Below, piece after piece: positions 3,577 through 57,015 of a stretch of DNA of 64,000 bases (positions within the stretch are counted from its first letter, which is position 1; each line of letters starts with the position of its first letter). Source of the DNA: Poriferisphaera corsica (GTDB taxonomy: Bacteria; Planctomycetota; Phycisphaerae; Phycisphaerales; Phycisphaeraceae); the NCBI RefSeq assembly GCF_007747445.1, contig NZ_CP036425.1, positions 2,278,175-2,342,174 of the forward strand, read 5' to 3'. Both the position numbers and the translations under genes were made by a program. The notes under the pieces are model-generated. The model was not told the origin of the DNA. It saw nothing but the letters and a program-made list of their open reading frames with translations, and did not search any database.

Positions 3577-3780
3577 GTTGCGTCTCCTTGCACACACATA
3601 TACGAAATGACCAAACTGCCAAGCATATCAGGCTAAAGCAGAAGATTTAAATATCTTTTACGTCCCTCCCTATTTTTTGATAAGTGTCATACTGTGTATC
3701 ACAGGCTTGTGAAGAGGTTCGGCTGCACGCAAGGTCGTGGCTTGTTGTTGATACTGAGTTGCTGCGGCGCGACAAGTTTT

Positions 3781-3938
3781 TGCGCACAAAAACTCAAAAC
3801 CGGTGATTTACCCGTAGTTAAAACCTGTTAGAAATGAAGAGAAATAGCCAAAAAGTTGAAAGCTTCGGGTGATAACCACGCGCTAAACGAATATTCCGCG
3901 CGAGCGAGAAAAGCATCAAATGCGCGTTTGTGCGCGCC
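3781..3938 (+). repeat. Interspersed repeat, copy A (TGCGCAC-N15-GTGATTTACCCGTA)
   Basis: The left block TGCGCAC (3781-3787) is followed after exactly 15 nt by GTGATTTACCCGTA (3803-3816). GAAATGA and GATAACCACGCGCTAA (3871-3886) follow, and a GTGCGCGCC-containing end lies at 3930-3938. The same blocks recur at 37174 and 55106. A 61-codon open frame on the minus strand covers much of this copy and is probably a by-product. The copy lies upstream of the gene at 3576 and downstream of the one at 4279, both on the minus strand. Confidence 0.75.
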
Positions 3939-4019
3939 GAAAGTTTTTTCCCAAAAACCGTTAGCATGGCATGGTATTTGCAGTGCAATCTCGATGCATA
4001 TACCCAAACACACCGCTTA

Positions 4020-37141: not shown

Positions 37142-37172
37142 ACACCGCCGGCTTACCAAAGTCGGCGGTGTT
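37142..37172 (+). terminator. Hairpin terminator of pyrC, T-run missing
   Basis: AACACCGCCG (37142-37151) and CGGCGGTGTT (37163-37172) pair perfectly around an 11-nt loop. The expected T-run is absent, and repeat copy B begins at 37174, immediately after the stem. Confidence 0.75.
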
Positions 37173-37173
37173 G

Positions 37174-37328
37174 TGCGCACGATTTTTCGATTTTAGTGAT
37201 TTACCCGTAGGCGTTTTGGTTCACTTTTCGCCAGCTTTGATGCGTTTTCGATCAGATTTGGTCAGAAATGATGAAGAAAATGCGCATTTTGATTCACCAA
37301 AACCGCTGCATTTTCGTTTTTGTGCGCA
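37174..37328 (+). repeat. Interspersed repeat, copy B
   Basis: TGCGCAC (37174-37180), an exact 15-nt spacer and GTGATTTACCCGTA (37196-37209) match copies A and C. GATCAGATTTGGTCAGAAATGATG follows as two related CAGA blocks. A second GTGCGCAC closes the element at 37321-37328, giving a 155-bp unit with the same palindromic octamer at both ends. It fills the spacer between two convergent genes. Confidence 0.78.
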
Positions 37329-37351
37329 CCTAAAAATTATTTCTCACATAA

Positions 37352-37705
37352 TCAGTTTTCAGATGATCCAGATTGTTTTTGCAATCGTGCCAAATGAAGC
37401 TGCGTGATTTGATTGTCGCGATCACGTTTGAGCTGGCTGTTTGCGTTGAACTGCCCGAAGCCAAAGAAGGCACATGCGATCATAAAAGCAATGGATTTGA
37501 TCTGTATGTTGCTACCTAAAAAAAGTGCAGGGATGAAGATCACCCAGATAAAGATCCACCAGAACAGGAAGCGATTATTGATCGTCTTTCGGTTTTTCTC
37601 GTAATTTGAAACGATTGATTCGGTGAGCTTGACCACCTTGGGATCATCATGGGATGCGTAATCACGGATCAGCTTTTCGATATGATCGTTTTCTGCGTCG
37701 AACAT
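37352..37705 (-). CDS. Small membrane protein A of the sigma-factor cluster
   Basis: Protein of 117 residues from ATG 37705, with GGAGG 5 nt upstream. A cytoplasmic helical head (MFDAENDHIEKLIRDYASHD) is followed by two adjacent membrane helices (FLFWWIFIWVIFIPALFLG and IAFMIACAFFGFGQF) and a helical tail. It resembles the next gene in layout (helical head, two helices, tail). It is the third gene downstream of the ECF sigma gene. No family is recognised. A role as a regulator of the sigma factor or of the envelope is possible but not shown. Confidence 0.6.
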   Translation of the reverse strand: MFDAENDHIEKLIRDYASHDDPKVVKLTESIVSNYEKNRKTINNRFLFWWIFIWVIFIPALFLGSNIQIKSIAFMIACAFFGFGQFNANSQLKRDRDNQITQLHLARLQKQSGSSEN

Positions 37706-54181: not shown

Positions 54182-54991
54182 ATGAATCAGCAAACTGAAG
54201 TCATGAAAAATAATGTTGTGAAGGTTGCCGCGCAGAGCGGCCAGCTCAGCGAGATGTTGCCGGGCAATCGCCTGCCTATGGATACTGGGGAGCAGAAAGC
54301 CGCCTTGAAAAAGGCTCAGCAGGCGGAGAAGCGGGTCAAATTGGGGATGGAGCTGCTTAAGGCATCGGAAAGCCGATTGTCAGCGCAAACGCAGATGCTC
54401 AATGCGGTGCGGCGAGAACAAAAACAACTCCGCGAGCAGGTGCATGGCGACATGGCCAAGAGCCTGCAAAGCTACGATCAGTGGCTCGGACAGATCGATG
54501 AGAGTTTTAGCAAAGCGATCCAAATGCTTGAAGAGAAGGTCGATACGGTGATGGGGTTGTGGGAGAAAAAAGAAAAACAGCTTGATGATATGACCCGCCG
54601 ATTTGAGCGTTTGTTCGAGCAAAATCAGCGTACGCTGATGGATATCAAGATGCATCATGCTGCGGGAGCGAATGGCGGCGAGGCGATGGGATCAAGTGGA
54701 AGAGATCGCAGCATGGGCGATGAAGAGGAGATGACAGCAGAGGAAGAAGCAGAGATCGAGATGATTTTGAAAGGTGAGTTGGTCGTTGAAGCTGGGGCGA
54801 GCGATCCGGCTGAAGAGGTAACGGAACCGATTGAGGCGGAAGAGGTCGTTGCTATGAATGATGAGGTCGTGATCAAGAAAGACCCGGCAGCGGCGCTGGC
54901 TGAACTGGCCGAGAAACGAGAAGAAGAAGCGATCTTTTCGACGGTATTGCGAGACATGAAGAACGCTCGAGAGCAGGAATCTGACGACTAG
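54182..54991 (+). CDS. Coiled-coil protein of unknown function
   Basis: Protein of 269 residues, nearly all helical and highly charged. Residues 35-160 form long heptad-like stretches (KAQQAEKRVKLGMELLKASE, LREQVHGDMAKSLQSYDQW, LEEKVDTVMGLWEKKEKQLD). Residues 175-235 are very acidic (GDEEEMTAEEEAEIEMILKG), and a last helix closes it. No signal peptide or membrane helix is seen. No family is recognised. It lies 108 nt from the divergent Nif3-like gene, with repeat copy C downstream. Confidence 0.7.
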   Translation: MNQQTEVMKNNVVKVAAQSGQLSEMLPGNRLPMDTGEQKAALKKAQQAEKRVKLGMELLKASESRLSAQTQMLNAVRREQKQLREQVHGDMAKSLQSYDQWLGQIDESFSKAIQMLEEKVDTVMGLWEKKEKQLDDMTRRFERLFEQNQRTLMDIKMHHAAGANGGEAMGSSGRDRSMGDEEEMTAEEEAEIEMILKGELVVEAGASDPAEEVTEPIEAEEVVAMNDEVVIKKDPAAALAELAEKREEEAIFSTVLRDMKNAREQESDD

Positions 54992-55060
54992 ATTTCTCTG
55001 ATGTTCATTTCAGGTTTGTGCGTAAAAAGGGTTTTATTTAACAGTGATAAATTGAGATGA

Positions 55061-55211
55061 ATGCGCGCACAAAGGCGCGTTTTTTTGTTGTTTGTGCCGG
55101 GTATGTGCGCACAAAATCTTCAAATTAGTGACTTACCCGTAATTAAAATGAGCGCGTTTTGATCAGAAATGATTGGAAAACGCAAAGTTTTCTGCGATAA
55201 CCGCGCGCTAA
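55061..55211 (+). repeat. Interspersed repeat, copy C
   Basis: TGCGCAC (55106-55112), an exact 15-nt spacer and GTGACTTACCCGTA (55128-55141) match the other copies. GATCAGAAATGATTGG and GATAACCGCGCGCTAA (55196-55211) follow. From TGCGCAC to GCTAA it measures 106 nt, the same as in copy A. A further CGCGCAC block precedes it at 55063-55070. The right end lies inside the 3' end of the Nudix frame and provides its stop codon. Confidence 0.75.
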
Positions 55212-55477
55212 CTGATCTCAGGCAGATTGAGGACCACGGATCGAGTGTCGAGATGATCAAGAATCTGGATTTTCTGTATAGCGAGTTCCTCATGGAGTTC
55301 TCGCTTGAGTGCTTGATGATGTGTTTCGTCAGGTTCGAGTCCGCCGCCGGGTGTGATCCAGTAGTGATTGATGTGTGGCGTTTTTGGGTTGACGGGCTGT
55401 GTGTCTTTACATTCGAGTAAGAGGACGTTGTTATTTTCATTGAGGATGACGGCTCGGGCTGCGTATCGTTGCTTCAT
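55208..55477 (-). pseudogene. Nudix hydrolase, truncated at the C-terminus
   Basis: Frame of 89 residues that starts well (MKQRYAARAVILNENNNVLL) and carries an almost complete Nudix box, GGGLEPDETHHQALKRELHE and then ELAI, with Ala in place of the last Gly. The catalytic Glu residues are present. After VVLNLPEIS it stops at a TAG whose bases belong to the GCGCTAA end of repeat copy C. Normal Nudix proteins of this type have about 130-150 residues, so about 50 C-terminal residues are missing. It may be inactive or a residual domain; expression is unknown. No alternative frame carries the missing part. Confidence 0.72.
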
Positions 55478-55624
55478 GGTTTTGCCTTTGATGGATAGAA
55501 TTGACTGGATGGATTATATGAGAAAAATATGTTTTGAATTGAACGATAGGTGAGATGAGCGGATACAGGAGTTCCCGACAATCGGTGTTGCTGACTATTG
55601 GTGTTGGAAAATTTGTGTTGATGG

Positions 55625-55655
55625 CAAAACCCCACGTTGATTGGCGTGGGGGTTG
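55625..55655 (-). terminator. Hairpin terminator of the AlaC-like gene
   Basis: CCCCACG (55630-55636) and CGTGGGG (55645-55651) pair around an 8-nt loop, with one extra G in the right arm. On the minus strand a short T-run (TTTT) follows. It lies about 30 nt after the stop codon at 55684. Confidence 0.7.
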
Positions 55656-55683
55656 CGGTCTATTCGATTGATAGGTTGTTGCA

Positions 55684-56871
55684 TCAGTTATTGAGGACGC
55701 GGGTGAGTTGGCGGATGGCTTGGCGAATGCGCTGGTCGTTTTCGACGAGTGCCATGCGAACGTAACCTTCGCCGAGGTCGCCGAAGGCGGCACCGGGGGT
55801 GAGGGCGACTTCGGCTTGATCGACCATTGCTAAGCAAAAATCGTTGGTGGAGCCGTTGTATGGGATAAGGTGTTTGGGGTTGACCTTGGCCCAGACGAAC
55901 ATGGAAGCTTTGGGGGTATCCACTTGCCAACCGAGCTTACGGAGGCTTTTACATAGGAGCTCACGGCGTTGAGCATAAACACGATTTTGCTGTTCGATGT
56001 GCTTATCGCCTTCACGCATAGCAACAATGGCGGCGATCTGGACGGCTTGGAATATGCCGTAATCGTAGTAGCCTTTGACGGTGGAGAGGGCTTTGATCAT
56101 TTGAGGGTGACCGCAGCAGAAGCCGATGCGCCAGCCGGCCATGTTGTAGGGTTTTGAGAGTGTGGTGAATTCGACGCCGTATTCTTTTGCGCCGGGAGCT
56201 TGGAGGTATGAGGGGGCTTTGTAGTTATCGAAGCAGGTCTCGCCGTAGGCGAAATCGTGAAGGATCATGACTTGATGCTTGGCTGCAAGATCGACGACTT
56301 TGGCGAAGAAGGTATCATCGACGGTCATGGTCGTTGGGTTGTTGGGGTAGCAGAGGATGATGACTTTGGGTTTGGGCTGGAGGTGTTTGAGGACGTCGTC
56401 GATGCGCGCGAGGAATGCTTCGTCGTTGCCAACGGGTACGAGGAAGACGGAGCCGCCGGCGAGGATAACGGCGGTGGTATGGATTTGGAAGGCGGGGTCG
56501 GTCACGACAGCGCAGTCGCCGGGGCCCATGATGGCGAGGCACATGTGTGAGAAGCCTTCTTTTGAGCCGATGGTTGCGATGACTTCGGTGTCGGGGTCGA
56601 GTTCGACGCCCCATTTGCGTTCGTACTTGCGGGCCATGTCGCGGCGGAGGTTGTAGACGCCGGCGGAAGCGGAGTAACGAGAGTTGCGGGGGTCGGTGAC
56701 GGCTTCGCGGATCTTATCGACGACGGGATCGGGTGGGGCGTCGGAAGGATTGCCCATGTTCATGTCGATGATATCGGCGCCGGCTTTACGGCGTTCGTAG
56801 ATCAGTTGTTTGAGTTGGCCTAATACATAGGTAGGCAGCCGCTCTATGCGAGAGGCAACGTTGATATCCAT
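55684..56871 (-). CDS. PLP-dependent aminotransferase, AlaC/LL-diaminopimelate type
   Basis: Class I/II aminotransferase of 395 residues. ATG 56871 has AGGTGG 8 nt upstream; a GTG at 56883 is possible. The blocks DMNMGNPSDAPP (about 40), SRYSASAGVYNLR, YPNNPTT (about 180) and the Schiff-base Lys in TLSKPYNMAGWRIGF (about 240) are typical of alanine-synthesising AlaC and related enzymes. It would pass amino groups between glutamate and pyruvate or similar keto acids. Similar genes often precede a homoserine dehydrogenase; none is present here. Exact substrate is uncertain. Confidence 0.88.
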   Translation of the reverse strand: MDINVASRIERLPTYVLGQLKQLIYERRKAGADIIDMNMGNPSDAPPDPVVDKIREAVTDPRNSRYSASAGVYNLRRDMARKYERKWGVELDPDTEVIATIGSKEGFSHMCLAIMGPGDCAVVTDPAFQIHTTAVILAGGSVFLVPVGNDEAFLARIDDVLKHLQPKPKVIILCYPNNPTTMTVDDTFFAKVVDLAAKHQVMILHDFAYGETCFDNYKAPSYLQAPGAKEYGVEFTTLSKPYNMAGWRIGFCCGHPQMIKALSTVKGYYDYGIFQAVQIAAIVAMREGDKHIEQQNRVYAQRRELLCKSLRKLGWQVDTPKASMFVWAKVNPKHLIPYNGSTNDFCLAMVDQAEVALTPGAAFGDLGEGYVRMALVENDQRIRQAIRQLTRVLNN

Positions 56872-57015
56872 GTTGATGTCCACCTGTTCAATCTATGTCC
56901 CCTGCCCTACTCATCCCAATGAAACAATCCCAATCTGATTCACAAACCTTGGGGGTGATCTGTGAGGAATTATTATACCAATCATGTTTTTATGCGGTCA
57001 CCCGAAGCGTTTGGA

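Follow-up and report, generated by a model that had tools for sequence, protein, structure and literature searches.

Dispersed repeats of the MITE and REP types are short, intergenic and present in many copies, and they carry inverted boxes. The Qrr small RNAs of Vibrio are driven by sigma-54 from enhancer-dependent promoters, with several copies in some species. For Proteobacteria only, PMC1569441 outlines a sigma-54 cis-regulatory region that accompanies PEP-CTERM genes and has a spacer of about 63 bp, and PMC12316311 reports, in outline, predicted sigma-54-dependent promoters in Planctomycetota, including Phycisphaerae. The repeat analysed here is best read, from its sequence and distribution, as an intergenic module found in the genus Poriferisphaera. 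At the level of titles and abstract openings the literature held no description of it, which does not prove it unpublished.

The genome of Poriferisphaera corsica is a single contig of 4,291,168 bases, of which we analysed one 64-kb stretch (hereafter the window). The sister species, the sole other Poriferisphaera genome compared, is genome G001 (5,234,020 bases), taken as P. heterotrophicis ZRK32. The window holds repeat copies A, B and C, and copy C meets a truncated Nudix gene at a joint. The features, in window positions, are as follows.

3769..3984, plus strand: repeat copy A, complete, with a sigma-54-like site, TGGCATGGTATTTGCA, at 3967-3982
37163..37361, plus strand: repeat copy B, with both boxes and without a strict sigma-54-like site
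54182..54991, plus strand: upstream neighbour, 269 aa; its sister ortholog has 61% identity and is likewise followed by a module
55015..55079, no strand: outer part of copy C, common to some other copies
55015-55022: box TTTGTGCG, in the outer part of copy C
55036-55052: near-palindrome ATTTAACAGTGATAAAT, in the outer part of copy C
55062-55079: inverted box TGCGCGCACAAAGGCGCG, in the outer part of copy C
55102..55215, plus strand: core of copy C from the first box to the joint, the module's left half, located with a profile built without copy C
55102..55115, plus strand: first box TATGTGCGCACAAA, a near-palindrome
55127..55141, plus strand: conserved motif AGTGACTTACCCGTA in copy C
55196..55215, plus strand: subfamily motif GATAACCGCGCGCTAACTGA in copy C
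55208..55477, minus strand: Nudix gene fragment, 89 aa, with the Nudix box kept and the C-terminal half of the domain missing
55215..55216, no strand: joint between the module and the Nudix gene, uncertain by about one base
55242..55307, plus strand: expected place of the second box and promoter (+140 to +205), both absent, with Nudix coding sequence instead
55684..56883, minus strand: downstream neighbour, a class I/II aminotransferase whose sister ortholog is 95% identical

The first-pass annotation described the Nudix frame as ending at 89 residues with its Nudix box kept, and both points hold. The frame at 55208-55477 matches the Pfam NUDIX profile at 2e-13 over profile positions 2-69 of 134 only, which leaves the domain incomplete, while the Nudix box, judged by the pattern that we take to define it, is intact except for A in place of G at one position. 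The translation ends ...LNLPEIS*. Its last two codons, I and S (55216-55211), and its TAG stop (55210-55208) fall inside the repeat's CTAACTGAT, in line with the earlier placement of the stop within the repeat's end; read from the module, CTAACTGA of the subfamily motif and the next T make up these two codons and the stop. All of the aligned Nudix relatives (20/20) extend beyond the point where the fragment ends. This, together with the partial profile coverage, speaks against a normal short working enzyme that overlaps the repeat by chance, an explanation that would suit the nearly intact Nudix box and the open frame and that we find scarcely credible.

The missing half was sought with the C-terminal halves of seven relatives, which returned nothing convincing in the window (best E 0.032) and so bear out the earlier claim that it is absent nearby. 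As a control, the N-terminal halves of the same seven relatives all matched the fragment (7/7) at 2e-9 or better. In a genome-wide search with one relative's Nudix domain (155 aa), the fragment was matched only over query residues 1-58, and the missing half was not found elsewhere in the P. corsica genome with this query; the search gave four further matches (E 4e-5 to 0.11), in frames of 142-229 aa that are presumably other Nudix genes. Searches for a source of the gene gave one distant match in GTDB contigs and two weak matches among solved structures; none of four candidate stretches in viral contigs proved to be a relative (0/4), and none of 43 plasmid records covers 80% of the query.

Two other copies in the genome match copy C far beyond chance, with 80% and 76% identity over 181-186 bases (E 1.9e-38 and 7.9e-32). 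A sequence-only profile of 247 positions, built from 59 copies with copy C left out, matches 55094-55215 at 3.4e-19 (best reversed-control match, 0.46), and its match to copy C stops at profile position 124 of 247. The subfamily marked by the CGCTAA motif comprises 11 copies (10 in P. corsica, including C, and 1 in the sister species), of which ten continue into a common stretch and copy C alone departs, at once. Because the other ten run on, copy C is itself truncated, and the end of the profile match taken with the departure from the subfamily indicates that the joint at 55215/55216 cut both the module and the gene. The second box is missing in 5 of the 60 P. corsica copies, copy C among them, and no strict sigma-54-like site was found at +165 to +205 of copy C, which is left with neither the second box nor the -24/-12 element of a sigma-54 enhancer-promoter region.

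Complete modules share a layout of two TTTGTGCGC-type boxes about 150 bp apart, with A-tracts between them in helical phase. The A-tracts recur with a period of 10-11 bp in both species and are absent in control segments of the window. With at most one mismatch allowed, the box GCGCGTTTGTGCGC occurs 65 times in the P. corsica genome, against 2 for the reversed pattern, and several of these boxes form direct pairs about 150 bp apart. Genome-wide, model R2 gave at least 61 matches in P. corsica and at least 64 in the sister species; among 36 further relatives outside these two Poriferisphaera genomes, 4 gave weak matches, six in all (E 0.001 to 0.009). Copies L002 and L004 have DNA in common well beyond the module, in the flanks past the second box, and a frame in L004 (2099-2461), judged by eye, resembles a transposase remnant.

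A sigma-54-like site was sought with the strict pattern TGGYAYG-N4-TTGCW. Model R1 was built from eight copies, each cut off before any sigma-54-like site, and carries a consensus RNA fold. In the 60 loci chosen with it (191 kb), all 20 strict matches on the module's strand fell between +177 and +201, counted from the first box, and one further match lay on the opposite strand. The set used for site comparison consists of 60 copies from P. corsica and 63 from the sister species. In these 123 modules, a selection biased towards the promoter region because the model behind it includes that region, 60 of 61 same-strand strict matches lie at +169 to +198, and 16 of 60 copies in P. corsica and 44 of 63 in the sister species carry the site. 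A -24/-12 element at a set place and strand is a property of the family, not of every copy; in the window, TGGCATGGTATTTGCA of copy A is the only strict match.

A looser GG-N10-GC test detected 47 of 63 copies in the sister species (controls 6-17) and gave a weak signal in P. corsica (26 of 60 copies, controls 11-18). At the peak positions in both species the remaining -24/-12 letters are conserved while the spacer and flanks vary, a pattern that mere common ancestry of a repeat would not produce. Because the -24/-12 pattern is conserved at a set distance, we call the family a sigma-54 enhancer-promoter module, and it is best read as an enhancer-promoter module with, in part of its copies, a putative sigma-54-like promoter a short way past the second box. 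In seven G001 loci (L291, L293, L296, L297, L308, L310 and L322) a palindrome, CTACTG-N-CAGTAG, lies at +173 to +194, about where other modules carry the sigma-54-like site, and is perhaps a second kind of promoter or operator.

The palindromic boxes, and a minus strand of copy C that folds better than its shuffles (z -2.8), might instead suggest a structured RNA or terminator whose sigma-54 likeness is incidental. However, the plus strand gave a z of only -0.95, no Rfam match was found in 54900-55700, and conservation near +180 tracks the -24/-12 positions. In the consensus fold of eight copies compensatory changes occur in just 2 of 24 pairs (covariation term +1.31), and for this reason the explanation was set aside as very improbable.

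The sister species carries, just downstream of the ortholog of the upstream neighbour, a full-length repeat copy in the same orientation as copy C. This copy was found at 1.6e-17 by the sequence-only profile and at 1.9e-18 by model R2 genome-wide, and neither it nor copy C was in the training set of either; model R1 gave only a 13.4-bit match with a 148-position deletion and did not list it genome-wide. Between the orthologous neighbours the sister locus has two other long frames and no recognisable Nudix gene (best E 1.9). The sister locus has the repeat and yielded no Nudix gene, which makes the repeat the probable older resident, present before the gene fragment joined it, and the Nudix gene a newcomer or the survivor of a deletion at this locus; a Nudix gene could also have been lost in the sister lineage, for which one genome was compared.

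Shared sites are common in the family as a whole. Specifically, 27 of the 60 P. corsica copies have a flank, side and orientation in common with one of the 63 sister copies, and 24 of these 27 pairs differ in spacing by less than 200 bp. The flank comparison had yielded 28 pairs, from which P_3632390 with H_1526795 was left out, the partner having a better pair; two pairs of loci in the two species align in opposite orientation. An earlier comparison on smaller sets, made without the test of side and orientation and leaving out one weak pair (L085) and three secondary matches, found a shared site for 15 of 30 copies, and four of the 33 copies now without a partner (33/60) were paired in it. 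The repeat behaves like an inherited fixture at many sites.

These results bear on the proposal of the first-pass annotation that the element had moved into, or recombined with, the Nudix gene, for which an uninterrupted, repeat-free gene in a relative would be the proof. Recombination is upheld by a real joint. Movement into the gene is unsupported, because a simple insertion leaves the remainder of the gene beyond the element, and neither the search of the window nor the one-query search of the genome recovered it; only one half of the target gene was seen at copy C. No intact, repeat-free Nudix gene was found at the sister locus, which shows the reverse, a repeat with no Nudix gene found at the orthologous place. 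A mobile repeat inserted into an intact Nudix gene would explain why the gene ends, and finds its stop, within the repeat, and spread within the lineage is indicated by the 10 copies of C's subfamily here versus 1 in the sister species and by the two copies that share DNA beyond the module. The loss of copy C's own right end and the site and orientation shared with the sister species by 27 of 60 copies nevertheless add to the evidence against insertion, and we consider it improbable.

Sequence similarity supports descent at the site weakly, because, when the 63 sister copies are ordered by likeness to C, the one at C's own site comes 53rd (51st before the joint), and the 27 site-sharing pairs have a median rank of 17, against 32 expected by chance; orthologous copies would appear to be each other's closest relatives only weakly, and not in the case of copy C. 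The near confinement of the CGCTAA subfamily to P. corsica is evidently a sign of copying or conversion in that lineage, and where copies spread or are converted in this way, C's present sequence may derive from another copy, although C's own site looks old. On this basis, homologous exchange or conversion might have brought in a Nudix fragment that had earlier been joined to a different repeat copy, and so have replaced the resident module. Copy C is indeed nearer to other P. corsica copies (76-80%) than to the sister copy at its own site, and its subfamily is concentrated in the P. corsica genome. No second Nudix-repeat fusion was found, however, the Nudix query matching one place in the genome at E 0.001, and in the 100 bases that immediately precede the first box the orthologous sister copy ranks 2nd in likeness to C, these bases being closer to it than to 61 of 62 others. 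We regard such an exchange as unlikely.

The explanation that we favour, and hold to be probable, is that copy C is the left half of an older enhancer-promoter module, fused to a Nudix fragment by deletion or illegitimate recombination. The site would be ancestral, the sister species carrying a module at the same place. In the P. corsica lineage, a deletion or illegitimate recombination would have fused the module, cut directly behind CTAACTGA, to a Nudix gene of the opposite strand, midway along that gene. The module would thereby have lost its second box and promoter region and the enzyme its C-terminal half, and the Nudix stop would come from the repeat by happenstance. The joint, both truncations, the sister module at a locus where no Nudix gene was found and the family's motif layout are read directly from the DNA; the order of events we infer. 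Both partners have most likely lost their function, as we likewise infer, which would make the Nudix fragment a dead gene and copy C a dead module. A module would work by looping and by activation through an enhancer-binding protein.

The neighbours of the 123 modules were surveyed with a crude frame call, taking the next frame of at least 100 aa downstream. It is convergent with the module at 61 of the 123 and co-directional with it at 62, and 34 of the 123 modules are overlapped by some frame of at least 100 aa. Eight neighbour proteins scanned with Pfam had no function in common. At 5 of the 123 modules the next frame is co-directional and has PEP close to its end, and 3 of the 5 pass TIGR02595; PEP-CTERM regulation as a general role was set aside, such neighbours being too few. 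Loci L204 and L268 hold an orthologous PEP-CTERM gene pair, and upstream of each of the two genes lies a module that carries a strict sigma-54-like site.

Further downstream, at +200 to +700, the motif TTTCACTnnARCGTRTCGT (up to three mismatches) occurs in 37 of 63 sister modules versus 2 of 60 in P. corsica. Over the 123 loci it has 122 matches on the module strand (84 within +200 to +700) and 1 on the opposite strand, many of them in tandem about 50 bp apart, as at the sister loci L311 (9 copies), L302 and L315. With up to two mismatches it was found genome-wide 239 times in the sister species versus 4 for the reversed pattern, and 11 times versus 1 in P. corsica; the motif is common throughout the sister genome and so occurs outside modules as well. 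At locus L219 of P. corsica (G000:C1:720985-725285), tandem units of about 72 bp, in which the TTTCACT motif is joined by a GC-rich palindrome, CCGCACCAGCGGTGCGG, lie downstream of the module.

The next downstream frame of at least 100 aa at copy A is convergent and about 300 bp away, so the predicted transcript could be non-coding, and that the modules may drive non-coding transcripts is a fair guess. A wider reading, which we offer tentatively as possible rather than probable, takes the family as a network of about sixty related sigma-54 switches, each with two protein sites on pre-bent DNA, that would mostly fire non-coding transcripts. One signal, acting through one activator, would then trigger dozens of RNAs simultaneously, about half of the switches would point towards the tail of a neighbouring gene, and copy C would be a switch lost when a deletion fused it to the Nudix gene.

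PMC10945688 names RNA-seq projects on the sister strain (PRJNA768630 and PRJNA694614), so existing data would serve to check the predictions of promoters and non-coding RNA. It is tempting to suppose that a repeat has jumped into any gene that ends in it, but this need not be so, and here a single sister genome suffices to point to the repeat as the older of the two. The joint is a minor event, and the interesting part is the module family behind it, through which a repeat that was anonymous becomes a regulatory module open to testing, in a class, the Phycisphaerae, that has been little studied.

Like MITE and REP elements, the Poriferisphaera repeat is short, intergenic and multi-copy, with inverted boxes; unlike them, it shares site and orientation with the sister species in 27 of 60 copies and has a -24/-12 pattern at a set distance. 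It resembles the Vibrio Qrr genes in having enhancer-dependent promoters for non-coding RNA, putative in the modules, but the Qrr genes number a handful, whereas the modules number about sixty and their RNA is only predicted. With the system outlined in PMC1569441 the family shares many intergenic copies in which an activator-site motif, sometimes repeated, is followed by a -24/-12 site, and a few modules do precede PEP-CTERM genes. It differs from that outline in the 150 bp that separate its boxes, in the phased A-tracts and in its neighbours, most of which are unflagged as PEP-CTERM, a place upstream of PEP-CTERM genes being the exception for the modules (5/123) rather than the rule. The promoters predicted in PMC12316311 are, in its outline, those of protein genes grouped by function, whereas the putative promoters described here belong to a dispersed repeat module.
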